A stretch of 44,069 bases of DNA, taken from positions 1 through 44,069 of the forward strand of contig JANWXU010000021.1 in assembly GCA_025057395.1 (NCBI GenBank), written 5' to 3'. The notes under the pieces are model-generated. The model did no database searches. It was not told where the DNA came from and saw nothing but the letters and a program-made list of their open reading frames with translations. Positions 2,416 to 38,728 of the stretch are shown here, one piece after another (position 1 is the stretch's first letter; every line of letters begins with the position of its first letter). The DNA is from Bacteroidia bacterium (GTDB lineage: Bacteria > Bacteroidota > Bacteroidia > J057 > JANWXU01). Made by a program: the position numbers and the translations under genes.

Positions 2416-2438
2416 CCTTGTTTTTGTTGAGGAATAAG

Positions 2439-4791: not shown

Positions 4792-7700
4792 CTAAGGTTG
4801 GATTATAATCTTATAGCTGACTAGTTTTTCTTCAAATTCCAGTTGTAAGAAGTACATTCCTGCTTCTTTGGTGGTTATTTCAATAAAAATTATAGGCTGC
4901 TTTCTCCAAAGTTCTATATCAAATTGAGTAATTTTCTGTCCTTTTACATTTAGCAAATATGCGCTACGTAGCTCCTGCTGCATGGAGGAGGAGAGAATAA
5001 GATAAAAACTACCCTTATTAGGGTTAGGGTATATCATGGTATTTTGAGGTTCCAAGAAGCCACCAAACTCCTTACAATTTTGGACTTCGATACGGGTTTG
5101 TTTAACAAAAAAACGGCAGTTCTCCTGCTGTATAAAAAGCCGGTATTCTCCTTGGTTGCGAATGCTTATATTTGTAATTGTAGGTGCAGCAAGTGTAGAA
5201 GAAAAGCCAGCAGGACCTAACCATTGGTAAGTTACGCCCGGAATAGAAGGTCCGAATAGCGTTATAGAACTACCTCCACAAGCTCGCATGGTATCTGCTA
5301 TGAAGGTGGTAGGAGAGGGTATAATGCGAGCTAAAGTTAGAGCTTGTGCTGAGGTGCATCCTCCTTGTATGATTGCCAAAGAGTATGCACCAGCATGGTT
5401 AGTATTCACGTTCGGTATTGTAGGACTATTTTGAGTTGAAACAAAATTATTAGGTCCTTGCCAAAGATAGCTAGCTCCAGGTATAAATGATGTTTGCAAA
5501 TGTAGAGTTTGTCCTTCGCAAACAGGTCCGTTATTACTTACAGTAGGAAGTCTAGGGGTGGGTTGTATTTCTACACGAAAAGTAGTGCTTGCCGTGCAGC
5601 TTCCTAAACGAACAGTTAGTGTATATATTCCGGCATCACTAGGTTGTATATTTTGTCTTTGTGGATTTTGTTGTGTACTTTGAAAGCCTCTTGGGTTGCC
5701 TGCAGCTGGTCCTTGCCAGAGGTAGGTAGCTCCAGGAATAGTAGGAGTGCTTAGAGTAAGAGTTTGCCCACTACAAATAGGAGCATTGCTGAATACGAGT
5801 GGAGTAGTAGGTAGGGCACTTACTGTTACCACCACTTGGGCAGGGGAAGTAGTACATCCTGCTGCAGATGCCCATACTTCATAAATTCCTCCTTGTGAAG
5901 TGCTGATATTAGGAATGATAATAGTTTGGCCTGTTTGGCTAAATCCGCCAGGACCTGACCACGTATATTGATAAGAGGTAGGACCTAAGGCAGTAAGGGT
6001 AAGAGTTTCTCCACTGCAGTGAGGACCTGAAACTAAAGCTTGTATACTTTGCAGAGGCATATTTACTTGTACAAAAGTTTGTTGTGGTTGTGAGGTACAA
6101 CCATTTACAACAGCCCATACTGAATAAGAACCACTTTCTTGCTGTGTAACATTAGGAATAGATAAGCTAGGGGCTAGGGTATTAATTATTTGTCCTGAGG
6201 GAGGTTTCCAAAGGTAAGTAGCATTAGGAATAGGATTTGTTTGCAAATTCAAGGTTTGACCTGGGCAAAGGGGCGAATTAGCACTAAGAAGTTCTAGGGT
6301 AGGTACAGGATTTACTATTAAGTTTAGGGTTGCGGCAGAAGAAGTACATCCCTGCTCAATAGCATATACGAAATATTGGCCGCTATGGCTTAGTTTGGTG
6401 GAAGTTAGTACAAGTTCTTGGCCCTGCCAAGAAAGATTTTGGGGCCCTTGCCAGAAATATGAAGTTTGTGGATTATCATCTTTAACTCCAAGGCGAATTC
6501 TCTGACCTTCACAAATAGGGGCAACGGCTTCCAGGGTAGGAGTTGCAGGAATCCGCACAACAGAAATAGGAAGGCTTGTTTCTTGAAAACATCCATTTTC
6601 TTCTACTCGTAGTTTTATAACTCCATTGCTTAGAGGATTAAGGCGGTACATTACACTAGAACCTTCTTGGGTATTACCATCGGGGAAAAACCATTGAAAT
6701 CGTTCATTTCTTTGGGATACTACGCTTAGAAAGAGAGTATCTCCTTCGCAGCGGCTAGGTGATGAAATAATAGTAGGAAGGGGAGGCAAGGGCTTGACTT
6801 CTACTCGAATTGTTTTTGCCAAAGAAGTACATCCTTGAGCAATTGCTACTACACTATATACTCCGGCTTGGGCTGAAGTAACATTACTACGCAAGATATG
6901 AGAAGAGGTAGTCTGGTGGTGAAAATTTTCTGGTCCTTGCCATAAGTATTGAGCGTTAAGAGGATTAGCAAAAGCTGTAAGTAATAAATTTTGTCCGCTA
7001 CAAAGAGGAGCATTACTAAAAATATTTTCTATAATTACTTGCCTTACTTCCAGTGAAAAAGTAGCTACTTCAGAGGTACAGCCGTTTTGCGATGCTACCA
7101 CACTATAAGTGCCATTATGATATAAGTTAAGATTATTAATGCTTATCTGCTGCCCCACTCGGTTATTCAAAAGAGGACCATTCCAAATAAAAGAACTTCC
7201 TTGTTGCCCTATAGCTCTTAGTATGAGGTTGCTACCTAAGCAGAAGGTTCCAATACTTTGAATAATAGGCTTGGAAGGAATAGGCTGAACATTTATTTCT
7301 ACTTTAGTAGGTATAGAGCTGCAGCTTTCTACTACTGCAACAATAGAATATATACCACTCACAGAGGGTTCTACTATAAAAGGTTCTGAAAGCCGCACAG
7401 CTGGTTGCCCTTGCGCTAGCCAAAGATAATATCCTTGGGCTCCTAAACTTGGTAAATCGAGTGAAATTTTTTGACCCTGACATATTGCAAATTGGGAATT
7501 AACCACTGGTTGTAGAGGCGTATTAATAATTTGTAAAGTGGTAGTTGCCCATTCTGAAGTACAGTTTTGTTCGACGGCATAGGCGCTTATAGTATGTTCA
7601 TTTGCTCCTTGTAATTGAGATGGTGTTAGAAGTAAAGTATTCCCTTCAAAGGTGGAATTGTGGAAACGCCAAATAATCGAAGCTTGCGTTGAAGCATGCC

Positions 7701-10700
7701 CTGCAAAAAGTTGCGCAGTTTGGCCCTGGCATATATGTAATTGCCCGCGAATATTAGGAGGAGCAGGTTTGGGGAAAACGCGAAGGGGGAAAAATGCCGG
7801 AGGAAGGGTGCAGTTGCCTATGGTAGCTGTTAAAGTGTATACGCCTGCAAAACTGAAATTTGCATTAGCGCGTAGAATCGAATACTCTCTAGAATACTCC
7901 TGTTGTAGGTGTGCTTCAAAGCCATCGGGTCCAAGAAGTGTATACCTGGCGCCAGGTACAGGGTTAAGAATTTGAAATAATACTGCTTCCCCCTGGCAAA
8001 TACTAGAAGGATAATTGAGCAATAAGTTTACAGTAGGTGAGGAAATATTGACTTCTAATGTAGCGGTATCAGAAAAGCAGCCATAGGCGTTTACTGCTAC
8101 TACAGAATATACACCACTGTTTTCTCGAATAGCTTGTCTTCGTAATTCACTGCTTGGGGTTCGAGCTGTAAAAGCACCTGGACCTATCCAGTAATACTCT
8201 ACTGCTCCAGGGGCATGTGCGTGTAATACTAGAGCAGAATCATTGGGGCAAAGAGGAGCATTGCTGAATATTTGAGGCTTGCGAGGCTTATCGTAAATTT
8301 GGATATCGATGGAAGCCCAATCGGTAGCACAGCTTCCTAAAACCGCGCGCACTTGGTAGGTTCCTGCATTATGCAGTCCGATAGGGCGAGGTACTCCTGG
8401 AAAAGGATGAGGAAAAGAATAAAATCCGTGGGGGCCGCGCCACTCAAACTGTGTACCATCAGGAAAAGAAGCAAAGTTCTTTACATATAAATTAATTTCC
8501 TGACCTACGCAGAAAGGACGGTCTTGACCAAAGATATTATAAAAACCTGGCTCGGGAATTATTTGTGCTGTTTCTATGATTCTTAGTCTATGTAGGGCTA
8601 TTTCGGAAGTGCAGCCAGCTGCGTTAATTGTTCGAATAGTATAAACCCCTTGATGAGCTGTAGTAATGTTTGGAATAAAAAGTTCGTTCCCCCTGAAGCT
8701 AAGGCCAGCAGGTCCTTGCCATAAATACTCGATGCCTGGAATAGGAGGGGCAACCACCTTTAGATCTTCTCCCGCGCAAAGCGATTGAGGAAAAGAAAGT
8801 CTTGGCGCTGGGGGTACAGGCAAAATTTCAATCCATATAGGTACTACAGAGCTTTGGCAACCTGTTGCAATATCTCTCAGTTGAAAATAAAGATACTGAC
8901 TTTGGCTTAATAGAGTAGTTCTAAATTGGAGAGTAGCTCCCACTCCCCTAGCAATTAGTTGGGTTGCGGCAGCATCATTAAAAAGCCGATACTCATATAC
9001 TTTATGTAGCGGGATGTTCATTTCTACAATTCCTTCCCCGCAACGAGTAATGGTAGAAATAACAGGCAAGATAGGGTTAGCATTCAAGGTAGCAGTGACT
9101 GCTATCCTTGGGCTTTTACATCCAGTATTAATATTTTGGTTTTCTAAGTAAAAAGTAGTAGTAGCGCCTGTAGAGGCTATAGTTTGTAAAAGGTAAGGAG
9201 CCTGACTTCGGGTAACTAAAGGCTCTTGAGCAAGAGAACTTGTATATAAATTAATTTGATTAATTCCTTCTATAGCATTTTCTGCAGTAACAGTAAAGGT
9301 AATGGGAAGTACGCCCGCCTCTGCACAAAGTGTAATAGAAGGTGCAGTAGGAGAACTAGGTAATGGGTGCACGGTGACATAAAAAGGAGTTTTAGGACTG
9401 TGGCAATGTGGTGTTTGAACGCTTATCCAATATTGTGCACTGGTAGTTACTTGCCAGGAAAAATGGAATGGAGTTGAAGTTGTTTGGAGTAATTGATTTT
9501 CGTTATTGCTGCCCCAAAGGTTTGCACTAGTGATATCTGTACTTTGAGCCCCTAGAGAAAAACTTATCTGCCCTGGTCCGCAGCGCACAAGATTAGACAC
9601 GTTAGGCGCCGAGGGTATAGGGTGAATTATAGCCACTGCAGGTACTTTGTTACTGCTACATTGCGTAATAGGGTTAATAGATTGAATAAAATAAGTAGTA
9701 GTACTTTGCGTAAATGGAGTAGATAGGCGGTAAGGTGGCTGAGAAACTCTATTAATTAGAGTTCCATTTTCTGCGTATAATTCAATGGTTTGCTCCCCTT
9801 GTATAGTGAATTGTAAACTGCCAGGTCCACAACGTGAAGGAGTATTAGGTATAGGAGCTGCAGGAATAGGTAATATGTGCAAGTCTAATGGAGCTCGCAA
9901 ACTTTGGCATCCACTTTGAGTATTTTGATGAGCTATAAAGAATCGAGTAGAAGTATTCAATGTAGGGGTTTCAAAAACCCACTGGTTCCCTTGTTTAAGA
10001 GTTGGCAAAGGAGTGTTGCTTTGTAGACTTTCGTAAATATAGACTTCTAAATTATTTTGTTCAAGAGTACCGCTTAGAATGAAACTACCGCTGCCGCAGC
10101 GACTAATAGTTTGGGGCGTAGGTTCAGCAGGAATAGGAAAAATATTTACTTGTATTGGACTTCTAGGACTTATACAAAGAGTTTGGGGATCTATTGCTTC
10201 TATATAAAATGTAGTATTTTGAGAAATATTTTCTAAGACACCCGTATTAGTGAAAAGAGAATATAAAGGTTGCCCCCCTGTAGCAATCGAATAAATTGCA
10301 TAGTGTAAATTATTAGAATTTGAGAGAGTAAACGAAACATTGCCACTTCCACAGCGCCCGAGAGTTATAGGAGCAGGAGCGGGAGGAGGAGGATTAGGTT
10401 GGGGATTAATCCACAGGGGTAGACTTTGGCAGCCAGTGGTAGTATTTATAGCTATAAGCTTGTAGCTACTATTTTCTTGATAAGGTAATTGAATAGATTG
10501 AGCAGGTAAGTCTATTAGCTGCAAAAGGTTTGAGTTGCTATCTTCTATCCTTATTTGATTGCTACTTGGAGTACCACTTGTTATGCTAAGAGTTACATGG
10601 GTGTTTCCGCACGCTGTTTGCGTTGTTGCTATAGGAGTACCTGGTACCGGGTGAATAGTAGCTTCTATTATTGTACCTTGGCTTTTGCATCCTGTTTGTG

Positions 10701-13700
10701 GATTTACGGCAATAGCTCGCAATTGGGTGGTTTGCTGTAGGTTCAAAGAAAATGTGTGAGGTGAAGTTTGTGAAGTACCTAATAAGAGACTACTTCCTTC
10801 TTGGTATATTTCAATAGCGGTAGGCTCAGGATTATTAGCATTAATACTAAAATTTAGGATGCCAGCACCGCAGCGAGATAAATTTGGAGCAGTAGGAGGT
10901 GAAGGAATAGGGGTTATTATGGCTTCAATAGGGATTGGGGTACTTTGACAGCCGGTTTGTGAATTATAGGCAGTAGCATAAAAAGTGGTGGTTTGTGTTA
11001 TAAGGGGGGTGGTATAATTATAAGGGGCATTGATTTCTAAAAAGGTATTTTGCTGGACATCTGGAAAAATGCGGATTATATCGGCTTCAGGAGTTCCTAC
11101 TTGAAAATTAAAAGTTAAAGAAGAAGGTCCACAGCTTAGGGGAGTATTAGCTGTAGGGGGGGCTGGTAAAGGTAAGATTGTTACGGGTAGAGACCTTAAA
11201 CTGCTGCTGCAACCTGTTGCAGTATTGTAACTTTGTAAGAAAAATGTAGTAGTAGTTTGAACGTGAGCAAGAGTAAAGACATAAGGAGCCCCAGAGGAGA
11301 CTATTAGCTCTGGGCCATTCCAAAGTAAAATTCTATCTCCTGCAGGGTCGCCCTGTACTGCTGTAAAAGTTATTATTCCGGGTCCACAGCGCACTAAATT
11401 GGGGGCATTAGGTATTCCTGTAGAGTAAATTACCGCTACAGCCGCAGTTCTAGGACTAGAGCAACCTGTTTGTGTGTTTCTGACTCCTATATAGAAGGTA
11501 GTGTGAGTATTTAGGAAGGGAGTAGTAAGGGTGTTATTAGGAAGGGTTTGGATTTGGATACTTGAAGGAGCAGTAGGGCTCACGTATAAATGAATTTCTT
11601 GTGCTTCTGCTTCGTTTGCGGTTACGGTAAATGTTACAGGGCCGGCATTACATCGCGCTACATTAGGAACTGTAGGAGCTGCAGGATTTGGAAGTACTAC
11701 TAACGAAAAGGTTGTTGGAGTGCTTTTACAACCCCAGGGCTGTAGTTCAGTAATAGCGCTGTAAGTAACAGTGGTAGTAATAGAAGCAGAAAAAGTATAG
11801 GGACTTTGATTTAGTGTTTGAATAGGAGTTTGGGTGGGTATTTCAGCAGAATAAATATGTACGATTGTATTAGGAGTAGGGCTTTGAAGGGTTAAGGTAA
11901 TTTGTCCACTTCCACAGCGAGAAACATTAGGCGCAGAAGGTGGCAAAGGACTACTAATAACAGTAACCACACTAGAGCCCAGCAGGCTAGTACAGCCGGT
12001 TGCTAGATTAATGGCTTCTAAATAAAAGGTGGTATTAGTATTTATGCCTGCCCTTTCAAAGCGATAGGGAGCTTGTTCTGAGCTGCCTAGGAGATTCTGT
12101 GATGCGTCATACAAATTAAGCTTAGTATTAAAGGGGTAGGAATTAGTAATTTCGATTGTATAGGGCACTCCTTGACAAGTAGTAACAGGAGCAGTAATTG
12201 GAGTTGATGGCCTGCTGTGAATAGTGACGCTACTAGAACTTACTTCACTTCTACAACCCGTAATAGGATCAAGTGCTTGCCAGTAGAAGGTAGTAGTAGT
12301 AGTTACAGTACGGCTCAGAAGGGTATTTTGAGTAGAATCGATGGGTTGGGTAGCTGCGCTATTGGTGTATAAGTAAATTTTAGTATTTGCAGTAAAGAAA
12401 GAAATACTAAAAGTAACTTGCCCAGCTAAGCAGCGCTCAATATTAGCTACTACAGGGGCAGGAGGAATAGGGAGTTCATTAATGGTAATTGGGGTTCTAC
12501 CATTGGTACAACCTGTTTGAGCATTAAATGTTTCTAGCCAATAGGTAGTGAATTGTGAAGTTAATTGCAATTGAAAATTAGGGCTTTGGGCAGTAAAAAT
12601 AGGATTTCCACCTGTTGTTTGTGAAAAGATTCTTATTTGTGTAAAAGGAGGGGTTCCGTTATTTACGGTCAAAGTAATATTTCCTGCGCCGCAGCGAGAA
12701 ACTGAAAATGGACCTGGAAGGGCAGGAAGTGGTAAAACTGAAGCTACCACAGGAACTCTATCGCTAACACAGCCGCTTGCTTCCTGGAAGGCAGCAAACC
12801 AAAAAGTAGTAGTAGCGGAAATATTTACTGTAAATTCATGGGGTGAGGTGTTTGCTGATAGAGTAGGTTGGGCAGCATTGGCACTCTCAAAAAGTTGTAT
12901 CCAAGTATTACCGCCTAAGTTTGCAAGTGTAGCTGTAAGGGTAATTATTCCGGCACCACAGCGGGAGTGATTAGGTACTTGTGGGGGGGTAGGCTTAGGA
13001 TGAACAACATGAACTACGCTAGTTCTAGAGCTAGGGCAACTATTTAAGTTTACTTCCAAATAGTAAGTGTACGTACCAGGAGCTAATTGAAAAGAAAACT
13101 CATAAGGAGGCGTGTTATCACTAGCAATAGGCTGCGTAGCCAATTCTTGAGTATATAACGATATAGCATTTCCAGGAATAGGGCCCATTTGCGCAGTAAT
13201 GCGGCTGATTTGACCCTGGCATACTGTAGCAGCTTCTGCCGTGGGAGCAGAAGGAATTGGATGGATAGTAACACTGAAATTACCACATCCACTTTTACAA
13301 TTTGTAGGTAGGTGAGTAAGTTGGTAATAAAAAGTAGTAGAAGTAGTAACATTTCCAAGAGATACACTTTCTCCTGGGGTATTAGCTGTAGCTAGGGGCA
13401 TACTACTACAAGAACCGCCGAAGAATTCTATTTGTGTGGCGCCCGGAAAGTTGAAAGGAAGAGTTATATCGATAGGACTTGGACCACATGATTGCCTAGA
13501 AGGAAGAGTAATTAAATTAGGAACTGGAGAGATGGTAACGGTAACGGCAGTGCGGCTGCTCCTACAGCCTGCCGTATTAATGGCTTCCACAAAAAAAGTA
13601 GTGGTATTGTTAATATTAGGGGTATTGAGTTCAAAAGGGGGGGCACTGGCACTAGCTATTGCTGTACCCCCTGTAGGCTGCCAATATAATTCGATTCGTT

Positions 13701-17613: not shown

Positions 17614-17747
17614 AGGTTTTTTTATATTAAATTTTACAATATAGCCAAAAAAGTTATAATCCTTATTTAGTTTACCTAAAAATTCAATAGAATTATTTAA
17701 ATAAGTGGTATTATTAAAAATAATAAGTTAATAATAAATTTTTCATC

Positions 17748-17767
17748 AAAAAACTTTTTAGTTTTTT
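17748..17767 (-). terminator. Weak A+T-rich hairpin downstream of kdsB
   Basis: On the minus strand, AAAAAACT-AAAA-AGTTTTTT forms an 8-bp stem with a 4-nt loop ending in six T, placed 69 nt after the kdsB stop. The stem has only two G-C pairs, so termination may be weak and read-through into the giant gene is possible. The gap 17614-17835 also holds a tandem AGAGCTGT duplication (17775-17790). I saw no convincing promoter for the giant gene in it. Confidence 0.35.
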
Positions 17768-17835
17768 TAATGAGAGAGCTGTAGAGCTGTATTAGGGTTG
17801 TATACCAAGTAGGGGGCTCAATTGTAAGAAGAAAG

Positions 17836-18603
17836 CTAATCTGTACTTTTTTTCAGGAGGGAAATTACTTTTAGTGCATCTTCTGGCGTATCAACAGCGA
17901 TTGTAGGATAATTGGTTTCTTGTATATAGATAGGAACACCGTGAGCTAGCCAGCGCAGTTGCTCTAGTTTTTCTGCTATTTCGAGAGGGTGAGGTCCAAG
18001 TTGTGCAATATGTTTTAAGGCGGCATATGAAAAACCATAAAGACCAATATGCTTGAAATAAGGCACGCCCTTAGTATTGAATCGTTTTTCTTCCCTAAGG
18101 TAGGGAATTGGACCCCTGCTAAAATATAAAGCTTTGCTATTATTATCTTTTACTACTTTAACAACATTAGGGTTATTAATTTCTTCCCAAGAATCGATTT
18201 TTTGGCATAAAGTGGCAATAGCTAGTTCCTCAGGAATTGCAAATAGCAATTCAAGTAATTGTTCAAGTTGCTCAGGTACAAGAAGTGGTTCATCCCCCTG
18301 TACGTTAAGGTAATAATTGTAAACTCTTACTCTTTTAAAAACTTCTAGCAACCGTTCTGTCCCTGATTGATGGCTACTGCTGGTTAGAATAGCTTGTGCT
18401 CCAAAGCTTTCTGCATGTTTAACAATGCGTTCATCTTCAGTAGCTATGTAGATATCAGTAATTTTTTCAGCTTTCTGAACTTGCTCATATACTCTTTGTA
18501 GCATGGTTTTTCCTGCCAGTTCCACTAATGGCTTACCAGGAAAGCGTTGAGAATGATATCTTGCGGGTATTATGGCTAAAATACGGCACTGCATACCAAA
18601 CAT
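17836..18603 (-). CDS. kdsB: 3-deoxy-manno-octulosonate cytidylyltransferase (CMP-KDO synthetase)
   Basis: Cytoplasmic enzyme that activates KDO with CTP to give CMP-KDO for the inner core of lipopolysaccharide. The 255 residues match the family's usual length of about 250. The N-terminal nucleotide-binding motif IPARYHSQRFPGKPL (12-26), ATEDERI (54-60), SGTERLLEV (80-88) and the metal-binding NVQGDEPL (100-107) are all intact. The second Met (residue 4, ATG at 18594) gives MQCRILAIIPARY, closer to the usual KdsB start, so the true start may be 18594. It sits between the two giant surface-protein genes, co-directional with the smaller one and divergent from the larger one. Nothing looks unusual in the protein. 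Confidence 0.95.
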   Translation of the reverse strand: MFGMQCRILAIIPARYHSQRFPGKPLVELAGKTMLQRVYEQVQKAEKITDIYIATEDERIVKHAESFGAQAILTSSSHQSGTERLLEVFKRVRVYNYYLNVQGDEPLLVPEQLEQLLELLFAIPEELAIATLCQKIDSWEEINNPNVVKVVKDNNSKALYFSRGPIPYLREEKRFNTKGVPYFKHIGLYGFSYAALKHIAQLGPHPLEIAEKLEQLRWLAHGVPIYIQETNYPTIAVDTPEDALKVISLLKKSTD

Positions 18604-18751
18604 TATGAAGTTTAGACGGATAACTTAGAGCAAAAATCAATTGTTTTTCTTTAAGGAAACAAATCTTAGCTACTTTGTAAAGTAAAATTATCACTTAATA
18701 GCTTCTAATTAGGTTTCTACACAATTGAGCTCGAGCCCTAATTCAAGAGAC

Positions 18752-18781
18752 TTGGTAAATTTTAGGATTTAATTAAATTTG
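18752..18781 (+). promoter_or_regulatory. Bacteroidota-type promoter of the larger giant gene
   Basis: TTG (18752-18754), 19 nt spacer, then TAAATTTG (18774-18781), an exact match to TTG-N17-23-TAnnTTTG. Transcription would start near 18785, giving a leader of about 70 nt before the ATG at 18854. The promoter overlaps the TTG at 18779, which therefore cannot be the real start codon. Confidence 0.5.
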
Positions 18782-18853
18782 TATAGCATACCTAATTTGG
18801 GTAAATACTGCTCTGCAGTTAAAATACATGTTTTTATTTGTGAAAAAGTTATT

Positions 18854-30800: not shown

Positions 30801-33800
30801 GTCCAGAATTTACTCGCTCTAATATAACTTTTGCAGATGCAGGTGTTTATAGTTTTGTAGCTGTTATAGATGGTTGTTCATCCGCAATATCTCGAGTGGA
30901 AGTAGCACCGAGAGCTACGCCTGCTATGCCATCGGTAAGTAGTAATGGGCCTGTTTGCCAAGGTCGAACTTTATTACTAACGGCTATTAGCCAGGGAGCA
31001 ACCCTCTATAAATGGACAGGACCAGCAGGGTATGATGTATTGGTAAATACTCCACAAGTTGCTAGGCTCAATGCACAACCTAATTTTAGTGGAAACTATA
31101 GTGTGACGGCTATTGCTAATGGATGTACTTCTATGCCTGCTACTTTAGCTGTAGTAGTCAATTTTACTCCGGCTTCGCCGGTTGTTTCTAATCCTATACC
31201 CCTTTGTCCGGGTGAGATACTAAGTATGACAGCTTCGGGAGCAGGTAATGTAAATTATCATTGGATGGGTCCGGGGGGCTTTGCAGCCACAGGTTCTAAT
31301 ATTACTCGAATTATACAGTCGAGTTTGCAGGGGGGAATTTATAGTGTTGCTGCTTTTCAAAGCAATTGTACCTCCGCTCCCGTAACTCGGATTGTAGTGG
31401 TAAAACCCAAGCCGGAAACCCCAACTGTAAGTAATAGTGGTCCTGTTTGTATTGGTCGGGAAGTCCTCTTTACGGCAACATCTTCTCAAGTAGCTAGTTT
31501 TAACTGGGTAGGGCCTGCTGCTTTTGTTGCAAGTGGTGCTAATGTGATACGCCCTATTACTAGTACTCTAGAAGCAGGTATTTACTCCGTAACTGCTACG
31601 GTGGATGGATGTGTTTCTGACCCCGCAACCACGGACTTAACTATACTGCCATCTCCGCCTGTTCCTTTTGTAAGCTCTAATGCTCCTTTATGTATAGGAC
31701 AAACTTTAAGACTTAGTGCTAGTGGAGGTCCTCTTAACGCTGTATATGTTTGGAGCGGACCTAATGGTTTCTCTGCCTCTACTAACATGCCTACTATTGA
31801 ACGGCCAGCGCTAGGTATCAATGATGCAGGTGCTTATAGCGTCTATATTCAGGTACCAGGCTGTAATTCAGACCCCGGTTCTGCTTTTGTTTCGATAATT
31901 CCTAAGCCTAGCCGCCCGGGCGCGCAAAGTGATGCTCCTAAGTGTGTGGGCGAGATGGTCACTTTTAATGCGGTAGGGCCTACTGCTCTAACTTATCGCT
32001 GGCGCGGTCCTAATAACTTTAATGAAACAGGGCAAGTGGTTAGTCGTTTTCTTACTTCAACTTTGCAAGCAGGCACCTATAGTGTAGTAGCTGTTTCGGG
32101 CAGTTGCGAGTCTGACCCTGGAGAAGTAAATATTGTGGTACGTCCCAAACCGCCTGCTCCTTTTGCTGAGAACGATGGACCTAAGTGCGCCGGACAAAAC
32201 ATTCGTTTAACGGCAACAGGGATAGCAGGAGCGAGCTATATATGGCAAGGACCTAATGGTTTTAGCTCTACAGGCGCAACAGTATCTCGTACCTTAAGTA
32301 CATTATTGGATGCAGGTTCTTATAGTGTAAGCGTAGTAGCAGGGGGATGTACTTCCACAGTAACTACTACAGAAGTTCGTGTAAAGCCCGTTCCACCGCC
32401 TATTGAAGCAAGCAGTAATTCGCCCTTGTGTGTAGGAGATCTTTTGCAACTTACTGCAACAGCTATTCAAGGGGCTACTTATGGTTGGCAAGGGCCAGAT
32501 GCTTTTTTGGCAGGAGTACCCCAGCCTACCAGGTCAAATGTTACTACAGCACAAGCGGGTATTTATTGGGTTGTTGTTAGCTTGGATGGATGTACTTCAC
32601 GCCCGGCCACAGTAGAAGTAGTTATTAATGAAAGACCCCTTAATCCAACGGTTACAAGTAATAGCCCCTTATGTGCAGGTTCTACGTTAGAGTTGAGTGC
32701 TAATTCACCCTCAGCGGCGGCAACTTATCTTTGGGATGGACCTGGTGGTTTTGTTTCTAGGGAAAAGAGCCCCGAACGTTTAAATGTAAATACTCCCGAT
32801 GAAGGGGTTTATAACGTAGTGGCTATTATTGGTAATTGTACTTCGGATATCTCTTCTACTTATGTGATAGTTCGAAGAAGACCCAACCCACCTATGATAA
32901 CTAATAATAGTACTCTTTGTGAGGGGCAGAATTTACAGCTTAACGCAAGCCTTGTGCCTGGAGCTACTATTCGTTGGACAGGGCCGGCTAACTTTATATC
33001 TAACGAATTAAATCCTGTTCGTCCTAATGTTAATCGTACTTTTGCGGGTATATATAATGCAGTAGCTATTCAAAATGGCTGTACTTCAGCCACAGCTTCT
33101 ACAACTGTTGTTATTAATCCTACACCACCGCCCGCTATTATTAGTAGTAACTCACCTGTTTGTGCTGGCTCTACGTTATCATTGACTGCTTCCATAGTAC
33201 CGGGCGCTAGCTACCGGTGGAATGGTCCTGAAGGTTTTTCTTCGACTTTACAAACTCCTAGTATTAATAATGTAGCTCTTAATCAAGGAGGGGTATATAC
33301 TCTTATTACTCTGATAGGTAATTGTGCCTCCACTCCTGCTACTACAGAAGTAGTAGTAGAGCCTGCTCCTCTTAATATCACGGCAGGTAATAATGGGCCG
33401 CTTTGCGCAGGGCAAGATTTGGTACTTTCGGCTACTTTTGTGCCAGGGGCTACTTATCTCTGGAATGGGCCTAATGGCTTTACTTCTTCGCAGCAAAATC
33501 CATTACTTCCTAAGGTAACTGTGCGTGAAAGCGGCTCCTATTCGCTCACTGTTCGAATAGGAGATTGTATTGCGCAAGCTACTACTACTGTAATTATCCA
33601 AAACGCTATTACTCAACCTCCGGCTATCAATAGTAATGCACCTATTTGTGCGGGGCAAAATTTACAGCTTTCTACTTCTGCAGTAGTTGGTGCTACTTAC
33701 AGTTGGGTAGGACCCAATGGCTTTACCTCCCTATTGCAAAACCCAGTTATTCCTTCTGCCACCACGGCTAATAGTGGTACTTATAGTTTAACGGTTCGAG

Positions 33801-36800
33801 TTGGGGCATGCGTATCGCCGGTAGCTTCGGCAGAAATCTTGGTGCGTCCTACTCCTACTTCTGTGGGTATAGAGACGAACGGTTCGACTATTTGTGCTGG
33901 CTCCCCACTTCGTTTTAATGCCTCTTTTATATTAGGAGCTCGTTATCATTGGAGCGGTCCTAATGGCTTTATTTCTTCTGAACAGAGCCCGGTAATTGCC
34001 AATCCTGCTGTAGCTAATAGTGGTACGTACTCTCTAATTGTTACACTAGGGGAATGCAGTTCGGCGCAGGTGACTACTAATATTACAGTTAATCCTAAAC
34101 CATCGGGGATAGCTGCTTTTAATTCAGGTCCAGTGTGTTCAGGAAGAAACTTACTGCTAACGGCTTCCTTTTTGTCGGGAGCAAGTTATCAATGGAGCGG
34201 TCCTAATGGTTTTAGTGCGGGTTTCCAAAATGTTACTATTTCGAACGTACAGATTGCTGCAGCTGGAATTTATACTTTGATAGCAAGAGTAGGAGGATGT
34301 AACTCTGATCCTATTACTACTATTGTAGAGGTTATTCCTACGCCGGAGGCGCCGAATGTGCTTTCTAATTCTCCTTTATGTAGTGGAGAAACTCTTAGAC
34401 TAACAGCAACCCCTGTATCAGGAGCGCGTTACTTTTGGAGCGGTCCATTAGGGCTTAATGCTACAGATAGAGTGGCTACTTTTACAAATGTAAGTCCGCC
34501 CTATAGTGGCAATTATAGTGTGGTAGCTATAGTGGGGGGCTGTACTTCTGCGCCTGGAGTGGTACCTGTAATAGTAAATCCTAATCCACAGCCTCCGATT
34601 ATAAGAGCTCCTTCGCAGATTTGTAGTGGGCAGACTTTACAGCTTTCTACAGAGTTGCAACCAGGTGCAGAATATGAATGGCGTGGACCTAATAACTTCC
34701 TAGCAAGAGAAGTTGCTCCTATAAGGCAGAGTGTAACTACTGCCGATAGAGGTATTTATAGCTTGATAGTCTCAATTGGTCGTTGTGTTTCTGACCCTGC
34801 GTTGACCCTAATAGAAGTAATACCTACTCCTCCTGCACCAATTGTGAGAAGTAATACTCCTGTCTGTGCAGGTGGTAACTTACAATTAAGTATTAATCCG
34901 CTAGCGGGTGTGACTTATAGCTGGCGAGGTCCCGCAGGTTTTAGTTCTGCTTTGGTTAGTCCTACTTTATTTAATGTGGGTACAGCAAATGCAGGAATGT
35001 ACAGTGTGGTGGCTTCTTTAGGTAATTGTTCTTCTGCAACGGTTTCTCATAAAGTAGAGGTGGTTCCGATTCGGAATATAGACGCCAATTCTAACGGTCC
35101 CTTATGTACTGGTCAAACTTTGAATTTATCCGCTACTTTTGTGGAGGGGGCAACCTATCAATGGTTTGGACCTAATAATTTTAGAAGTCTTGCGCAGAAT
35201 CCTAGCATTGTAAATGTAGGTATACAAGCTGCTGGTTTGTACTCGGTAATTGCCATTTTAGGGAATTGTACCAGTAATACTGCAGTAGTGAATGTAGGTA
35301 TAACAGCAATTCCAGATAGACCCAATATTTACAATAACAGTCCTTTGTGCGAGGGAGAAACTTTGCAGTTAAGTACAGATTTTATACCCGGAGCTAGCTA
35401 TAGCTGGAGTGGACCGCGTAATTTTTCTTCCAATGGCTCTATTGTTACTCGCTCTAATCTTCGTACTCATGATGCGGGAGTGTATAGTTTGCTTGTGCAA
35501 GTGGGGGCTTGTACAGCAAATTTAGCAACTACCATAGTGGAGATAAACCCAGCCCCTCTTAACCTAATTGCTAGAAGTAACGCTCCAATTTGTGCTGGTT
35601 CTACTTTGTTGCTTTCTGCAAATTTTATTAACGGGGCTAATTATAATTGGCGAGGGCCAGCAAATTACTCGGCTTCAGGTCCTGCTCCAGTTGTTCCAAA
35701 TATTAGTACTGCACAGGCAGGTCTTTATACTGTGACCGCCACTTTAGGAAATTGTACTGCAAGGTCTGTGGTGAATGTGGAAGTAGGAGCTACTCCTGAG
35801 GTGCTAGAGGTGCGTAGCAGCTCTCCTGTGTGTGTAGGGGGAGTGCTCGAACTCTATGCGCCGCTTATACCAGGGGCAAATTACAGTTGGGTAGGACCTA
35901 ACGGTTTTTCTTCTGCTGTAGCCAATCCTGTTCGTTCAAATATCAGCTTGGCAGATGCGGGAGAATATACACTAACTGTATTTGCAGCAGGTTGTAGCTC
36001 TCGGGCAGCTAAAACTTTAGTGGAAGTATTTACTCAGCCTGAACGCCCAGTGGTAAGGAATAATGGACCTTTATGTGCGGGTCAAAACTTAGAGCTTTTC
36101 GCCACTTCCATTCCAGGAGCTAGATATTTATGGAGCGGTCCAGGAGGCTTTAGCAGCACTGCACAAAATCCTATTCGCCTAGGTGTGAATGCTTCGATGG
36201 CGGGTCGTTATACTGTAGTTGCGCTGTTGAATGAATGTGTTTCGTTGCCTACTACTACAGAGGTAGTAATTAGTGAGCCAAGGGCTAGTATTCGGGCTAT
36301 TAAGCCGGTTATTTGTGCAGGTGATTCTTCGGGTATAGAAATCGATCTACAAGGAATTGCTCCTTGGCGTTTGCAATATCGAGAGAACGGTATTTTGGGC
36401 GAGTTTTTTGTTACGCAGACTCCATATCGGGTTTCACTTCTGCCCCCTGGTAATATCAGTTATACATTAGTGAGTCTTATTGATGGTTTAAACTGTGCTG
36501 TGGAGCTCAAAAGCAGTGCAGAAATTGAGGTTGTTGCAGAGCCTATTGCTCAATTATTAAATGCTACTACTATTTGCCCGGGAGACTCTAGTAAGTTTTC
36601 AATTTTAATACAAGGTCTTCGAGAGCAAGATGAATGGAGCCTAGTTTATGGAATTGAAAATCGCGAATTTAATGCTCGGGGTAAGGGCAGTGGAGTTATT
36701 CATTTATTTACTCCTCCACTTTATAGTAACACAACTATTCGATTAAGAACCCTTGATAATTTAACTGTAGGGTGCCGTCGTTTGCTAAATAGTAGTATAC

Positions 36801-38728
36801 CTGTCAAGGTAATACCCCCTGCTACTGCTCGCTTTATTTCTGAAGATATGACTATTTGTGAGGGGGTAGAAATTAATTGGGGCTTTGAACTAACAGGAAA
36901 AGGACCGTGGCAAGTGGCATATGCTGTAAATGGAGCGCCGGATACTTTGGTTTTGGGTACTGCTGCTACGCCTTCGCCTGCAAGATTTACCTTTTCTTAT
37001 TTTCCGCGGCAAACAGTTACATACGAAATATTGAACGTACGAGGAGCAGATGGTTGCTTTGCGGGTGCCCAAGATACCTTTACAATTTTCGTGAATCGTT
37101 TACCGCGACCTGCTAGTGGAGTGCGTTCAAATTCGCCAGTTTGCACAGGCGATACTTTGCGTCTTTATGCTTCAGGGGAGGTGGGTGCAGATTTCTTTTG
37201 GAAAGGACCTAATGGCTATACTTCGTTAACTGCTAACCCTATAATTATTCCTGTTAAAAAAGAAAATGAAGGGGTTTATACCGTAGTGACAATTGCCCGA
37301 GGATGTACTACGAATGTACCTATAGAAACTCGAGTCCAAGTACGTCAAAGGCCTTCGGTATCTGTAATTGCTAGGCCTGCTGAAATTTGTATTGGCCAAG
37401 CAGCGGAGCTAATCTTGAACTTTAACGGAGGTCCCGCATTTTCGTTTGCATGGCAAGAAGGAGAAGCGGGTGCAAGAATAGTGAATGGTGTAGAATCGAT
37501 GCACTACCGATTAACCGTAGTGCCTCAAACCGCAGGTGATAAGCGTTATATAATTTCTCAGCTTATTGATTCAGCGGGTTGTGTGGGCCTAAGTGCGCAA
37601 ACTACTTTACGAGTTTTGCCCAATCCTTTTGTGGAAGTATTAGAAGTAACAGAGCCGGGTTGTGGTAGACCTACAGGTAGAATAAAAGTTCGAGGAAGAG
37701 GTGGGGTAGATTCTCTTTATCGGTATGGTATTTCAGGAAGAGAAAGCATGAATACTAGTGGAGAATTTGACGAATTAAGAGGGGGAGTATATACTGTGAC
37801 GGTTTTTTCGGGAGGGTGTAGTGCTACGGCGCAGGTAGTGATGCCGAGTGCGGCTCAGGCGGAAATTACAGCTATCACCTCTACCGAAGAGCAGGCTCAT
37901 AATTCAGTTACTCTTACTTGGCAGTCTACTGCAGGTGCTGCTAGCTACACTTTGCTATATAGAGTGAGTGGAGAAGCTAATTGGAGAGAAGTGAGTGGTA
38001 TTAGGAGTACTAGTTATACCCTACAAGGTCTATCTCCTAATACGCGATATGAATTTAGTATTCGTACCCTTTGTGCTAATGGTCAAGTTGCGGGTAATAG
38101 TGCTATCCAGACTTATACTACGGCTTCTCCATCTGCAGGTTGTTTAACGCCTGGCAATATTACGGTTCAAAATATTACTCGTAGTAGTGCTAGAGTAACA
38201 TGGCGAGCAGTGAGTGGAGCAGTTTGTTATATTATCACATATGGTCCTGTAGGTACTCCTGCGAGTACTTGGAGTCAGTTATTAGTTCCAGCTAATGCTA
38301 CTTCTACCCAGCTAGATAATTTGCAGGCAGGAGTTCGTTATGGGGTAGTAATGCAAACGAATTGTAGTTTATGTTCATCGCGTGCTGGTACTCGTTCTAC
38401 AGAAAGTAATATAATAGAGTTCCTTACTTTGCCTAGCAGGGAGGCGCAACAAGTAGGAAGCGAATTGATTTTAGTCAATGCCAAACTCTACCCTAACCCT
38501 ACTCAGGGTAAAGTGATACTAGAAGTTTCTAACTTTAGCATTTCGGAATTAGAGATTAGGATATTAGACCTAGAAGGTAGAGTACTACAAAAGCAATATA
38601 TACTAGGAAAAATGGATGATGTATTGCAAGTGGAGTTAGACTTAAGCAATTATTCAAGTGGGATATATATACTGCAGTTGCAAAGCAAAGGTATAATTAA
38701 GACACAGAAAATTATAGTGCAAAAGTAG
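18854..38728 (+). CDS. Giant T9SS-secreted Ig-repeat surface protein, 6624 residues
   Basis: Predicted secreted or surface fibre of about 0.7 MDa, in the size class of the gliding adhesin SprB. I chose the ATG at 18854 because it gives a lysine/arginine-started signal peptide (MKRIYNNILISLIELSALIG, then ALKAQ); the frame upstream starts only at TTG within the promoter. Residue ranges are approximate: 33-3683, 41 RCG Ig-like repeats of about 89 residues; 3683-5808, 26 W/GP Ig-like repeats; 5810-6085, three PW-type Ig-like repeats; 6085-6165, a 27th W/GP repeat; 6167-6258, a fourth PW repeat; 6258-6337, an SprB-like repeat; 6337-6528, two fibronectin type III domains; 6541-6624, a type A T9SS sorting domain (LYPNPTQGK). 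No enzyme domain and no N-terminal cap domain are visible. The frame is uninterrupted over almost 20 kb. Role in adhesion, gliding or matrix is inference. Confidence 0.92.
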   Translation: MKRIYNNILISLIELSALIGLFAFAPTQALKAQCPAEPLLPASVSICGAGVVTLTPSLVSPMGDGVRLYTQGTGGTPFSTSIIPPYLLNTPFTTVTTTYYVASFIFASGCESARVPVVVNVYPVPAPPASTNFSRCGEGNVSITASTGTPFANQVLLYTLPSGGSAVDASVGPPYVLTSPFLFTTTNLYLEAKNTVTGCASASRTQVTVTIHPIPGVPTVPDIVRCGPGISTFTVTNGSPPGSVMRLYTQSTGGLPIATDDTPPFLLSDPNPIFTSTIYFISSRSAAGCESNRVQVGVTVLPPLAPPTAPSFSQCGPGPALITATMNTPAGNEMRIYTTPLPGYPPFAIDQVPPYTFAIPYLTTTTTFYVESGFSNNTCASSRVPVVITVHPVPGAPTAANVFKCGVGQLTFTGIMGTPTGDEMRLYTTIAGGTPVQTAGFPFLLTTPAVTVYTNVTYYLEAVQTQTGCASPRTQVVAQFLTEPNPPIATGVARCGMGQVTFTAFMGAAPGDQIKIYSVPTGGLPINTFYSPFLIPSPTVSVTTSFYLEAFNSVTNCSSTTRTLVVATVHPLPAPPSVPSAERCGVGSVVFTATMNIPAGDQVRIYTTTNPLTTPLAIDGAAPYFLTTPLLTINTPFFFTVYNSQTGCESPPIQSTAVIHNAPLPSEPSALDVTRCGSGPVTFSVQMGTVPGNEIRLYTTATAQFPIATVAQAPYHITTPELFQSAVFYISAGGLFSCESNRVPVIATVHPIPGPPQAQNVARCGPGSVIFTANMTTPLGTQINLLDASLGLVATGVTNNQFQFTTPGLATTTAFYLEVENVSTGCKSTQIQVLGIINPLPPPPSSTNVLRCGSGPVTFLIGGADITEAYLYPVPVGGAAIASAVGVPYSLTTPDIFATTSFYIERKNSAGCTSGRFEVVATVLPVPPPPIASNLSRCGPGSVEITATLGSGDRIRLYTQSQGGVPILEALPPFFIQTPNLSESTTFYLASVLNNTNCESTTRTPVAIQINPIPSPPISSGASICGVGSVTFSLQPGIVAGSEVRLYDTPNASVPISIDNSLPFNLSTGNLSTTTEFYAEAVDGASGCKSQRVSLLATVHPVPGLPYADDVARCGSGKVTFTAEFSFPGGDEIRLYDSPTQGNLIASANGPFLLMTPDVVVTTPFYLEAVSKATGCKSARYQVLALVNIPPGDPVVPTVQRCGPGIVTFTVSLGAPPGSAVALFTTPLGGTPISQDLLPPVYELTSPIINNTTTFYVESISTATGCASNRVPAIAVVERPVGAPIVQQASSCGPGIVTFTVAMGNPAGNQVVLYETPNATGFVSSDNSIPYTLQTSFLIQSKTFYVRAVNTTTGCVSPLVPVEAVIYPVPGNPQAQDVNLCASGSATFSATMGVPAGNQLRLYNQPSGGTLVAVTSELPYRLQTPQINITTIFYLESVNTTTGCTSSRIPVTAIVNPKPGNPLVANVARCDSGVFTFNPQMTNPVGTEMRLYNMQNQLLATSTSLTNFALNTPSLSTTTSFLISSYNAVTGCESDKVTVQAVFNKPPGLPQAANMVLCGSGPTTITAFMGSPMGTEMQLYSDANATNLVGSSTGVGSAYPIQIANVAATTTFYLVSFNANTNCRSDKKEIVIRVEEKPGQPIASDVQRCGPGIVTFTAFFGSPAGNQVRMYEQATGGNPIAITSSSDLELTTPFVINATTTYFIESFNTNTGCGSIRTSVVATINTLPGIPSTIDQLRCGPGTVVFYPNNGNPPGQQMLLYEQQFGGTPIVQANVGSPLTTPAITTTTTYYLASKDNVSGCESIRRPIVATINPEPAMPFAADVARCGPGEVTFTAVMGSPPGNQIRLFTQPVGGASFIIDSNSPYTLTTTVQETRVFYLEVVNIFTGCSSTTRFPVTAVVNNLPGPPIAANVTSCGVSSITFTAFMGSPAGDILKLYTQPSGGIPVAIDATSPFELTTETLAQTTSFYLEAENSITGCVSPRTQVIATIQPLPGPPIAANISTCGSASVTFSAAMGSPPGTEVRLFISPAGGAPLASAAGTNLLLTSPPITTSTIFYLESFDANTGCRSIRTPVSVTRGAEVGIPTASNAVRCGEGNVIITAAMGIPSGNVLELYTQSVGGSPIVTDNIPPFELVTPLITTTTTYYVGSLNTATGCRSLRTQVLALVSKVPEPPIANNVARCGIGSVYFTAGITDFYGDAIRVYQTSAGNTLLYEDINFPYEFTTPSLETTTTFYLSSVNRVSGCESLRIPLLVTITSPPGIPTALPVARCGAGSLVFTPSIAPNSVDEVRLYNDQNELVMVSTTPPYLLTTPILYFDAIFSIEAVRDGCLSQRGQVLAKVNSIPAPPFVGNVTRCGEGAVTFTASATYPPGTQLELYSTPVGGVPLSTDSSEPYEMVTPHLLTSTTFYVAHRNQFTGCVSERTVVVVTVYSGVVLPQAAPVARCGAGRVIFSATMSSPAGDVIRLYDTPSGGQPLATDAYDPFTITTPEISQTTTFYLESLNSQTGCVSIGRTPVTAIVNIPPGIPNFTSIGRCGAGIATLTAIMSAPGGTEVRFYDAPQAGALLAKDNTSIYEFVTPILTTTTTYYAASFDAATGCESFRAPAVVTIHPVPGTPTVSNASRCGAGKVVFSAMMGVPSGTDIRLYSSNIVGAAAVDIDTESPFELSTPTISSSTIYFVASYNAQTGCESARIPVTAVIHPFASLPVAENVKRCGPGIATIVATMPSAPGNQVRLFEVQQGGVPIVIDPEPPFLLPTPVISTNTTYYIEGYNASRGCPSTNRLPVVVTIQELPAPAIVEEVVRCRPGILTFTVRIGNPPGNKVKLYDNLLAINPIAVAFAPPYTLTTGTVIASTTFFIEVENTQTGCNSERVPVGAKIVVAPDMPFAQDVERCGPGVVTFTADMGFLPGNQILMYSLPVGGLPLQADASPPYTFQTEVLQATRTFYLASYSSATGCESERRLVTATIYQRPGPPLAAEVARCGAGSITFTATMGSPAGSKIAVYDSPQGNVPISVVTAAPYEIETPFIATTTTFYLESIIGSTGCVSDRSPIVARVNIVPAAPSVESVKTCGGGQVTFSLVLPSPAGNVVRAYTLPSSGAPIALDLQPPYEISLNVQVTSTFYFSSVISTTNCESMRSAAIAEVFPKPGIPAVLDVSRCGPGSVTFTATMTSPPGSQIRIYNAPTSGLLLGIDNTSPYLLNTPEVNQTTTYYFSSFNTATNCESDRVAAVLTVQPIPAEPTVINMARCGPGPVTFTTTMNQPMGNEMRLFEAFSGGNAIARDKVAPYLLSVPYVAATRSYFVQAVDTSTGCESKRVPVDIEIRTLPFAPKVSDVSICGPGSATFTVDLLAGSTAGLRALLYTVPVGGAPIFTDILPPYELVATNLFATTTFYVEFYNANILCSSPRVPVIANVLPNPSQPTVSSVSRCGRGSVTINAFMGSVPGQEIRFYNVPSGGEPLFGDDTSPYRYVTPSLENTTVFYVEAVGAGGCKSQRTAVSAVIHPLPAKPAVSSVQRCGAGVVTFTPAMGIPAGNMTRLYDQADLIVATSTIAPTYALTTPNQTTTTIYYIDSYNSITGCASERVPVSAIIVPLPGSPKSMDIERCGASIVTFTAEMGNPPGERIAIYTSPTATTPLSVDNHPPYEFTTPLNTTSTAYYLEAISQVLGCRSIRTVVNVTILPVPVPSVSSNTPVCLGSVVNLSASAPPGTTFFWQGPNGFTAEGSNPSFVATSSAVAGLYTLTAKLGNCTSTPITQDISITLTPITPIATYYNVLQEEQPLCEGQELNLRVINIRDYPPGATFIWSGPAGYYLSSELAFPAIPNMTTDREGLYYVAVVVNGCTSATSQGVEVKVFKRPPPPVATNNSPLCANTGLIQLYASEVPGDIRYVWEGPNNFTATTRTAARLPIPANAGTYYVQAIDKNGCRSGLDSTVVVIKQNPQQPVVQVSNPICVGSELRFTVAGLLGTEFRVRGPNNYSAVGLGPEFTRSNITFADAGVYSFVAVIDGCSSAISRVEVAPRATPAMPSVSSNGPVCQGRTLLLTAISQGATLYKWTGPAGYDVLVNTPQVARLNAQPNFSGNYSVTAIANGCTSMPATLAVVVNFTPASPVVSNPIPLCPGEILSMTASGAGNVNYHWMGPGGFAATGSNITRIIQSSLQGGIYSVAAFQSNCTSAPVTRIVVVKPKPETPTVSNSGPVCIGREVLFTATSSQVASFNWVGPAAFVASGANVIRPITSTLEAGIYSVTATVDGCVSDPATTDLTILPSPPVPFVSSNAPLCIGQTLRLSASGGPLNAVYVWSGPNGFSASTNMPTIERPALGINDAGAYSVYIQVPGCNSDPGSAFVSIIPKPSRPGAQSDAPKCVGEMVTFNAVGPTALTYRWRGPNNFNETGQVVSRFLTSTLQAGTYSVVAVSGSCESDPGEVNIVVRPKPPAPFAENDGPKCAGQNIRLTATGIAGASYIWQGPNGFSSTGATVSRTLSTLLDAGSYSVSVVAGGCTSTVTTTEVRVKPVPPPIEASSNSPLCVGDLLQLTATAIQGATYGWQGPDAFLAGVPQPTRSNVTTAQAGIYWVVVSLDGCTSRPATVEVVINERPLNPTVTSNSPLCAGSTLELSANSPSAAATYLWDGPGGFVSREKSPERLNVNTPDEGVYNVVAIIGNCTSDISSTYVIVRRRPNPPMITNNSTLCEGQNLQLNASLVPGATIRWTGPANFISNELNPVRPNVNRTFAGIYNAVAIQNGCTSATASTTVVINPTPPPAIISSNSPVCAGSTLSLTASIVPGASYRWNGPEGFSSTLQTPSINNVALNQGGVYTLITLIGNCASTPATTEVVVEPAPLNITAGNNGPLCAGQDLVLSATFVPGATYLWNGPNGFTSSQQNPLLPKVTVRESGSYSLTVRIGDCIAQATTTVIIQNAITQPPAINSNAPICAGQNLQLSTSAVVGATYSWVGPNGFTSLLQNPVIPSATTANSGTYSLTVRVGACVSPVASAEILVRPTPTSVGIETNGSTICAGSPLRFNASFILGARYHWSGPNGFISSEQSPVIANPAVANSGTYSLIVTLGECSSAQVTTNITVNPKPSGIAAFNSGPVCSGRNLLLTASFLSGASYQWSGPNGFSAGFQNVTISNVQIAAAGIYTLIARVGGCNSDPITTIVEVIPTPEAPNVLSNSPLCSGETLRLTATPVSGARYFWSGPLGLNATDRVATFTNVSPPYSGNYSVVAIVGGCTSAPGVVPVIVNPNPQPPIIRAPSQICSGQTLQLSTELQPGAEYEWRGPNNFLAREVAPIRQSVTTADRGIYSLIVSIGRCVSDPALTLIEVIPTPPAPIVRSNTPVCAGGNLQLSINPLAGVTYSWRGPAGFSSALVSPTLFNVGTANAGMYSVVASLGNCSSATVSHKVEVVPIRNIDANSNGPLCTGQTLNLSATFVEGATYQWFGPNNFRSLAQNPSIVNVGIQAAGLYSVIAILGNCTSNTAVVNVGITAIPDRPNIYNNSPLCEGETLQLSTDFIPGASYSWSGPRNFSSNGSIVTRSNLRTHDAGVYSLLVQVGACTANLATTIVEINPAPLNLIARSNAPICAGSTLLLSANFINGANYNWRGPANYSASGPAPVVPNISTAQAGLYTVTATLGNCTARSVVNVEVGATPEVLEVRSSSPVCVGGVLELYAPLIPGANYSWVGPNGFSSAVANPVRSNISLADAGEYTLTVFAAGCSSRAAKTLVEVFTQPERPVVRNNGPLCAGQNLELFATSIPGARYLWSGPGGFSSTAQNPIRLGVNASMAGRYTVVALLNECVSLPTTTEVVISEPRASIRAIKPVICAGDSSGIEIDLQGIAPWRLQYRENGILGEFFVTQTPYRVSLLPPGNISYTLVSLIDGLNCAVELKSSAEIEVVAEPIAQLLNATTICPGDSSKFSILIQGLREQDEWSLVYGIENREFNARGKGSGVIHLFTPPLYSNTTIRLRTLDNLTVGCRRLLNSSIPVKVIPPATARFISEDMTICEGVEINWGFELTGKGPWQVAYAVNGAPDTLVLGTAATPSPARFTFSYFPRQTVTYEILNVRGADGCFAGAQDTFTIFVNRLPRPASGVRSNSPVCTGDTLRLYASGEVGADFFWKGPNGYTSLTANPIIIPVKKENEGVYTVVTIARGCTTNVPIETRVQVRQRPSVSVIARPAEICIGQAAELILNFNGGPAFSFAWQEGEAGARIVNGVESMHYRLTVVPQTAGDKRYIISQLIDSAGCVGLSAQTTLRVLPNPFVEVLEVTEPGCGRPTGRIKVRGRGGVDSLYRYGISGRESMNTSGEFDELRGGVYTVTVFSGGCSATAQVVMPSAAQAEITAITSTEEQAHNSVTLTWQSTAGAASYTLLYRVSGEANWREVSGIRSTSYTLQGLSPNTRYEFSIRTLCANGQVAGNSAIQTYTTASPSAGCLTPGNITVQNITRSSARVTWRAVSGAVCYIITYGPVGTPASTWSQLLVPANATSTQLDNLQAGVRYGVVMQTNCSLCSSRAGTRSTESNIIEFLTLPSREAQQVGSELILVNAKLYPNPTQGKVILEVSNFSISELEIRILDLEGRVLQKQYILGKMDDVLQVELDLSNYSSGIYILQLQSKGIIKTQKIIVQK
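18950..29900 (+). repeat. 41 RCG-type Ig-like repeats (about 89 residues each)
   Basis: The consensus is VARCGPG.VTFTA.MG.P.G, then .RLY....GG.PIA....PY.LTTP, TTTFYLES.N..TGC.S.R, and PV.A.V.P.PG. I counted 41 anchors of the CG type; units 16 (LCASG), 17 (RCDSG) and 32 (RCRPG) vary at the anchor. Two cysteines recur about 60 residues apart in each unit. The motifs after the anchor match CHU_C-associated Ig-like (Ig_7) domains. Codon choice differs between units, so no recent duplication is evident. Confidence 0.88.
29902..36278 (+). repeat. 26 W/GP-type Ig-like repeats (about 82 residues each)
   Basis: The consensus is SNSPLCAGQTL.L.A...PGA.Y.W.GPNGF, then NV..A.AG.YS(V/L)....G.CTS.......V.P.P. 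Units 2 to 4 are irregular: unit 2 has an insertion before the Trp, unit 3 replaces C.GQ by CANT, and unit 4 has FRVRGPNNY without Trp. From unit 10 on, the array is more regular. Confidence 0.88.
36280..37625 (+). repeat. Four PW-type Ig-like repeats with one W/GP repeat inserted
   Basis: Three units (about 36280-37105) share IC.GD or IC.G.., a .L.G..PW.L.Y strand, a long loop, then .TYEI..V....GC. A single W/GP unit follows (SNSPVCTGDTLRLYASGE; 37110-37350), and then a fourth diverged unit (EICIGQAAELIL; 37350-37625). Such domains occur among the Ig-like repeats of other Bacteroidota giant proteins. Their function is not known to me. Confidence 0.65.
37625..38435 (+). other. SprB-like repeat followed by two fibronectin type III domains
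   Basis: The segment opening TEPGCGRPTGRIKVRGRGG and ending GGVYTVTVFSGGCSATA resembles the SprB repeat found in gliding adhesins. Two fibronectin type III domains follow. The first has VTLTWQSTAGAASYTLLYR and LSPNTRYEFSIRTLC; the second has SARVTWRAVSGAVCYIITYG and LQAGVRYGVVMQTNC. They form the stem between the Ig arrays and the sorting domain. Confidence 0.7.
38475..38725 (+). other. T9SS type A sorting domain of the 6624-residue giant
   Basis: The last about 84 residues begin AKLYPNPTQGKV, contain LEIRILDLEGRVL and SSGIYILQLQ, and end in IIVQK. This is the canonical type A C-terminal targeting domain. It differs from the type B domain used by SprB itself, so the export and anchoring route should be the A-type one. 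Confidence 0.92.

Follow-up and report, generated by a model that had tools for sequence, protein, structure and literature searches.

Giant genes beside kdsB

The window analysed here, a 44,069-nucleotide stretch of a draft Bacteroidia genome, contains two giant genes, referred to below as giant A (P0001) and giant B (P0002). As the initial annotation of this DNA had proposed, they point in opposite directions with kdsB alone between them, and both frames are open throughout. The two genes are 1.0 kb apart. Features of the locus are as follows (positions in the window):

4792–17613 (−): giant A (P0001), 4273 aa, with putative signal peptide, DUF7948 and SBBP-like propeller head, two PKD/W-like domains, 23 R units, 15 W units and T9SS type A tail
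16828–17505 (−): DUF7948 head domain of giant A
8824–14835 (−): R (Ig_7, PF19081) array of giant A, 23 units
5074–8805 (−): W/GP (GhpA-shaft-like Ig) array of giant A, 15 units
4798–5034 (−): T9SS type A sorting domain of giant A (TIGR04183, 34.9 bits)
17836–18603 (−): kdsB, an ordinary gene between A and B (CTP_transf_3, 184.8 bits)
18779–38728 (+): giant B (P0002), 6649 aa counted from the TTG at 18779, with putative signal peptide, 41 R units, 27–28 W units, two fn3 domains and T9SS type A tail, without a separate head
18953–29890 (+): R (Ig_7) array of giant B, 41 units
29906–36280 (+): W/GP array of giant B, 26 contiguous units (one further unit at 37118–37354)
37634–38728 (+): fn3-fn3-sorting tail of giant B (TIGR04183 at 38486–38722, 47.9 bits)

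The start of giant B is likely the ATG at 18854, ahead of the putative signal peptide. The N-termini of both proteins are hydrophobic (judged by eye rather than with a signal-peptide predictor). Both C-termini match the T9SS type A sorting domain above the TIGR04183 cut-off of 23 bits. HMMs trained on the window repeats identified 23 R and 15 W units in giant A, plus two W/PKD-like domains ahead of the R block. In giant B they found 41 R units, 26 contiguous W units, one separate W unit (residues 6114–6192) and one weak match. The repeat counts made earlier by eye (23+15 and 41+27) were thus reproduced, and the description of both proteins as T9SS cargo in which two Ig-like repeat families follow one another, R then W, is supported by the HMM counts and the sorting tails.

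A Pfam search brought out two differences that the initial annotation had not remarked upon. Giant A has a DUF7948/beta-propeller head, one of 16 copies of DUF7948 in the genome, which is absent from giant B; giant B has two fn3 domains before the tail, which are absent from giant A. Beside giant A is a gene for a patatin-like phospholipase whose C-terminus bears a long extension (2418–4736, +). Also near giant A is a gene for a TPR-array protein, which runs off the window edge (1–2190, −).

Identity and predicted structure of the repeats

The R repeat was identified as Pfam Ig_7 (PF19081), with matches above the family cut-off in 31 stretches of the first half of giant B (E 4e-284) and in 12 stretches of giant A. 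The W/GP repeat corresponds to no single Pfam family. The W profile and the W array of giant B match GhpA, grappling hook protein A of Aureispira sp. CCB-QB1 (Lien et al., 2024, as described in PMC11205867 and PMC12510463), over most of its length, and the array of giant B scores 1,427 bits over 13 stretches (phmmer). Judged by sequence similarity, the W/GP repeat is a member of the domain family that forms the GhpA shaft resolved by cryo-EM (PDB entries for GhpA: 9FLP, 9FLS, 9FLU, 9FLV, 9FLW, 9FLX, 9FLY and 9G8B).

AlphaFold2 predictions for three consecutive domains were of high confidence for both R (pLDDT 97.9, pTM 0.84) and W (pLDDT 98.0, pTM 0.83); these models span three domains each, not the shape or oligomeric state of a whole rod. 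Foldseek placed fragments of GhpA at the top of its ranking for both triplet models, with query-normalised TM values of up to 0.80 and 0.71. The sequence of a single R triplet had no match in the PDB, and the R profile gave weak cross-matches to stretches of GhpA, of 57.6 bits at most. The predicted likeness of the R repeat to GhpA is mainly a match of fold. Two or more cysteines are present in 1,076 of 1,084 R units and 1,181 of 1,194 W units, and the spacing is Ig-like in nearly all, which suggests an intradomain disulfide.

It had been noted that no described system was recognised with this make-up. Part of the make-up is in fact already described, because the W repeat falls in the GhpA domain family, and the R repeat is Pfam PF19081. 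The other part of the statement stands, in that literature searches found no description of a protein combining long R and long W arrays.

A genome-wide family of giant proteins

Large frames similar to those of giants A and B are found throughout the genome. Frames with a minimum of three R or W domains number at least 82; they occupy 798,453 bp, or 19.6% of the 4.08-Mb assembly. The census covered 80 stretches around large frames together with the window, and its counts are lower bounds because further large frames exist beyond it (e.g., on C220, C241 and C62, and at C184:1836 and C189:6041). Iterated models recognised 1,084 R and 1,194 W domains in these giants, 41 of which are at least 3,000 aa and 12 at least 5,000 aa in length. 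R and W domains outside large frames are very few, so nearly all of the giants appear to be intact. Models built from the window alone found 1,076 R and 1,075 W domains in the real giants, compared with no R and one W domain after the sequences were reversed and none of either kind after shuffling; a chance origin of the matches is excluded. A first look at the whole assembly gave 2,073 Ig_7 candidates, and all 150 of those that were scored pass.

The genome also encodes the T9SS translocon protein SprA (TIGR04189, 2,148 bits, cut-off 200), and at least 150 matches to TIGR04183 were identified in it.

Some large frames are of note for their size or arrangement. Three giants of 7,941, 5,773 and 3,675 aa occur within 66 kb on C167 (9745–33567, +; 38389–55707, +; 64550–75574, −), the first with 76 W domains. 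A 7,635-aa frame at C88:18484–41388 (−) has a DUF7948 head and just two recognised W domains. The G+C content of the 82 giants is 0.420, versus 0.367 in the remainder of their stretches.

Heads, rods and tails

The W block comes last in 26 of the 30 giants that have at least five R and at least five W units. Two of the four exceptions are cut by contig ends, and one is frameshifted. In the latter case, a 594-aa frame with five R units, one W unit and a sorting tail (C88:3956–5737, −) directly follows a tail-less giant of 4,176 aa with 23 W and 26 R units (C88:5683–18210, −). These frames represent a single giant that is frameshifted or broken, or else an error of sequencing; the tail is located in the next frame.

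The fn3/sorting tail of the type seen in giant B is common to 59 of the 68 giants that have a 3′ end. The heads are far more varied: 54 giant heads group by sequence into 26 clusters, of which the DUF7948 type is the largest (15 members), followed by a head of about 985 aa (six members). Giants with the latter head (on C111, C166, C224, C211, C15 and C8) share 32–52% identity over it and continue as pure R arrays of 22–39 units. This head had no Pfam match in the heads that were scanned and no PDB match in a search with one member, and the heads of most giants likewise had no Pfam match. On C111, a GldJ/PorK-like gene (63526–64764, +; 136 bits) is located immediately upstream of the giant with 39 R units (65107–80178, +).

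Comparison with other genomes and known systems

Ig_7 domains are widespread, and were identified in 378 of 395 genomes drawn evenly from the class. In the same search this genome had 1,825 candidates and the next genome (G001) had 321; such candidate counts are a rough measure, in the comparators mostly well above the number of passing matches, with at least 1,076 domains verified here. In 36 genomes from the order to which a high-ranking comparator belongs, a set that partly overlaps the first sample, the candidates peak at 443. Genomes outside the approximately 400 screened could rival this number. The number per genome (2,073 candidates versus at most 443) sets this organism apart from the others screened; the family itself is known to Pfam as an Ig-like, CHU_C-associated domain. 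We found no description of expansions of Ig_7 or of giant proteins in Bacteroidota in literature searches. The domain types themselves are known, and through their relation to GhpA they fall within a kind of fibre already described; what we did not find described is their expansion at the scale of a genome, with R and W rods combined.

Several known systems share features with these proteins. DUF7948/SBBP propeller proteins (PF25778, PF06739) resemble the head of giant A, which in giant A is joined to 38 Ig domains. Giant1–5 of Apilactobacillus kunkeei are extracellular proteins of 3,000–8,000 aa that take up 6% of a 1.5 Mb genome (PMC12863079). They are comparable in size, in their unusual share of the genome and in being strongly diverged paralogues. 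However, they belong to a Gram-positive bacterium, are encoded in one cluster of five to six genes and contain beta-solenoid domains (PMC12863079), whereas in the genome studied here the genes, for Ig rods with T9SS tails, number at least 82, are scattered and take up about 20% of 4.08 Mb.

Alternative explanations

The repeats could in principle reflect an assembly or binning artefact, or repeats in decay, as the assembly (4,080,717 bases) is a draft of 244 contigs and several giants stop at contig ends. This has a practically negligible probability, given that the assembly is 96% complete with 0.3% contamination, and that the frames remain open across 798 kb with a single apparent frameshift (on C88). 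No exact 20-base repeats occur within or between the genes for A and B, and no exact 40-mers are common to any giants (k-mer tests); a TRF search found no tandem arrays in the two genes. Given how strongly the repeats have diverged at the DNA level, they cannot be explained by recent duplication or by collapse of short reads. Assembly collapse of the two genes is unlikely, and recent tandem duplication was rejected on the negative k-mer test. Giants A and B had also been tentatively taken for an expanded paralogous pair that could form two surface fibres; such a pair would have been duplicated from one ancestor and kept around kdsB to encode cooperating fibres. The two genes do have the same repeat families in the same order, in opposite orientation around a single short interval. 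However, there are at least 80 similar giants in the genome, and the nearest neighbour of every A repeat lies outside giant B, as does that of every B repeat outside giant A. Mean identity between the R repeats of A and B is 0.30. The array closest to that of giant B is on C213; as a relative of the B arrays, giant A comes 36th among 40 giants for R and 28th among 44 for W. The two proteins differ in heads and tails, which match those of other giants: the head of A is closest to that on C226 (52%; a protein of 2,033 aa that has four W domains) and then C200 (40%), and the tail of B is closest to that on C172 (38%). Close pairs of giants are about as frequent as expected by chance. Eleven pairs are less than 6 kb apart, versus 11.4 expected under random order, and six are less than 1.5 kb apart, versus 3.0 expected, a mild excess on small numbers; contig breaks bias both counts downward. 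No such pair was found beside kdsB in neighbourhoods from 20 genomes, all of other families of the order and some represented by short stretches. On the repeat neighbours, the heads and tails, the adjacency statistics and the kdsB neighbourhoods, we reject the matched pair, and a dedicated two-fibre system is largely refuted and highly improbable. Both giants belong to a family of giant Ig-rod proteins that is spread over the genome.

Two described kinds of giant T9SS cargo also have to be considered as counterparts. According to PMC11205867, Aureispira hooks are heptamers of a T9SS-secreted protein that grip the flagella of prey before killing by T6SS. GhpA is, like giants A and B, a T9SS-secreted giant of similar size (5,898 aa), and most of it is made of W-type Ig domains in tandem, which are homologous to those in the W arrays of A and B; the predicted R and W triplets both match it best. 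That giants A and B are true grappling hooks of an ixotrophic predator is nevertheless unlikely. GhpA is without a recognisable R array (see the profile and triplet searches above), whereas there are 23 R units in A and 41 in B. A PDB search with the head of giant A gave no match, and giant B has no separate head. One such protein is named in Aureispira, and a hook would need one giant, rather than the 82 or more identified here. The T6SS sheath marker PF05591 was not found in the genome, with a positive E. coli control, nor was PF17541, in a search run without a control. Because T6SS markers were not detected, ixotrophy in the manner of GhpA is not supported; with the single R triplet also lacking a PDB match, we retain kinship to GhpA for the W domain alone. 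The giants might alternatively be gliding adhesins of the SprB kind, driven along the cell surface. SprB of Flavobacterium johnsoniae (669 kDa; PMC7918930) is likewise a giant repetitive T9SS surface filament, and T9SS is present here. SprB has a type B tail (PMC9143113) and SprF/PorP anchoring (PMC7918930, PMC9143113), whereas giants A and B have type A tails and Ig_7 and W repeats. No match to CHU_C was found in A or B at the threshold used, and GldJ was matched only below its cut-off (136 versus 458 bits). We rejected SprB-like gliding on the type A tails and the sub-threshold GldJ, and regard it as very unlikely.

Proposed model and implications

We conclude that the genome encodes a family of at least 82 modular giants, probably exported by T9SS, with a putative signal peptide, an optional variable tip, often an R rod, a W rod and a common fn3/type A tail, and likely to function in adhesion or capture (we assign this reading a probability of roughly 0.78). 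The giants would be exported by Sec and then pass through the SprA translocon. In the type A route, the C-terminal tail is removed and the protein is bound to surface lipopolysaccharide (PMC9143113). If this applies to the giants, the tail would be cut off and the new C-terminus attached covalently to lipopolysaccharide, and it would follow that W is a stalk close to the cell, that R extends beyond it and that the head forms the tip. If each domain adds about 4 nm, the fibres could be approximately 150–300 nm long. The proteins probably do form extended surface fibres, as had been proposed, though a dedicated two-fibre system is not supported.

The giants may let the cell adhere to surfaces, particles or other cells, or capture them, by means of many different tips carried on one type of stalk. 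That so many heads occur over a common stalk and tail speaks for a multiplicity of targets and against a single structural role. It is possible, at somewhat less than even odds, that about one fifth of the genome serves as a combinatorial arsenal for capture or adhesion, in which dozens of tips are mounted on a common chassis of R rod, W stalk and T9SS tail. If so, the arsenal would have no close precedent for its scale, and GhpA would be the best-studied of its relatives.

These results shift the question from two genes to an investment at the scale of the genome: 19.6% of the assembly, compared with 6% in a lactic acid bacterium noted for its giants. They tie an uncharacterised, widespread repeat, Ig_7, to the solved shaft domain of GhpA within the same polypeptides. 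Whether Bacteroidota make surface fibres from interchangeable parts becomes testable, with tip, R rod, W stalk and common tail as the design rule.
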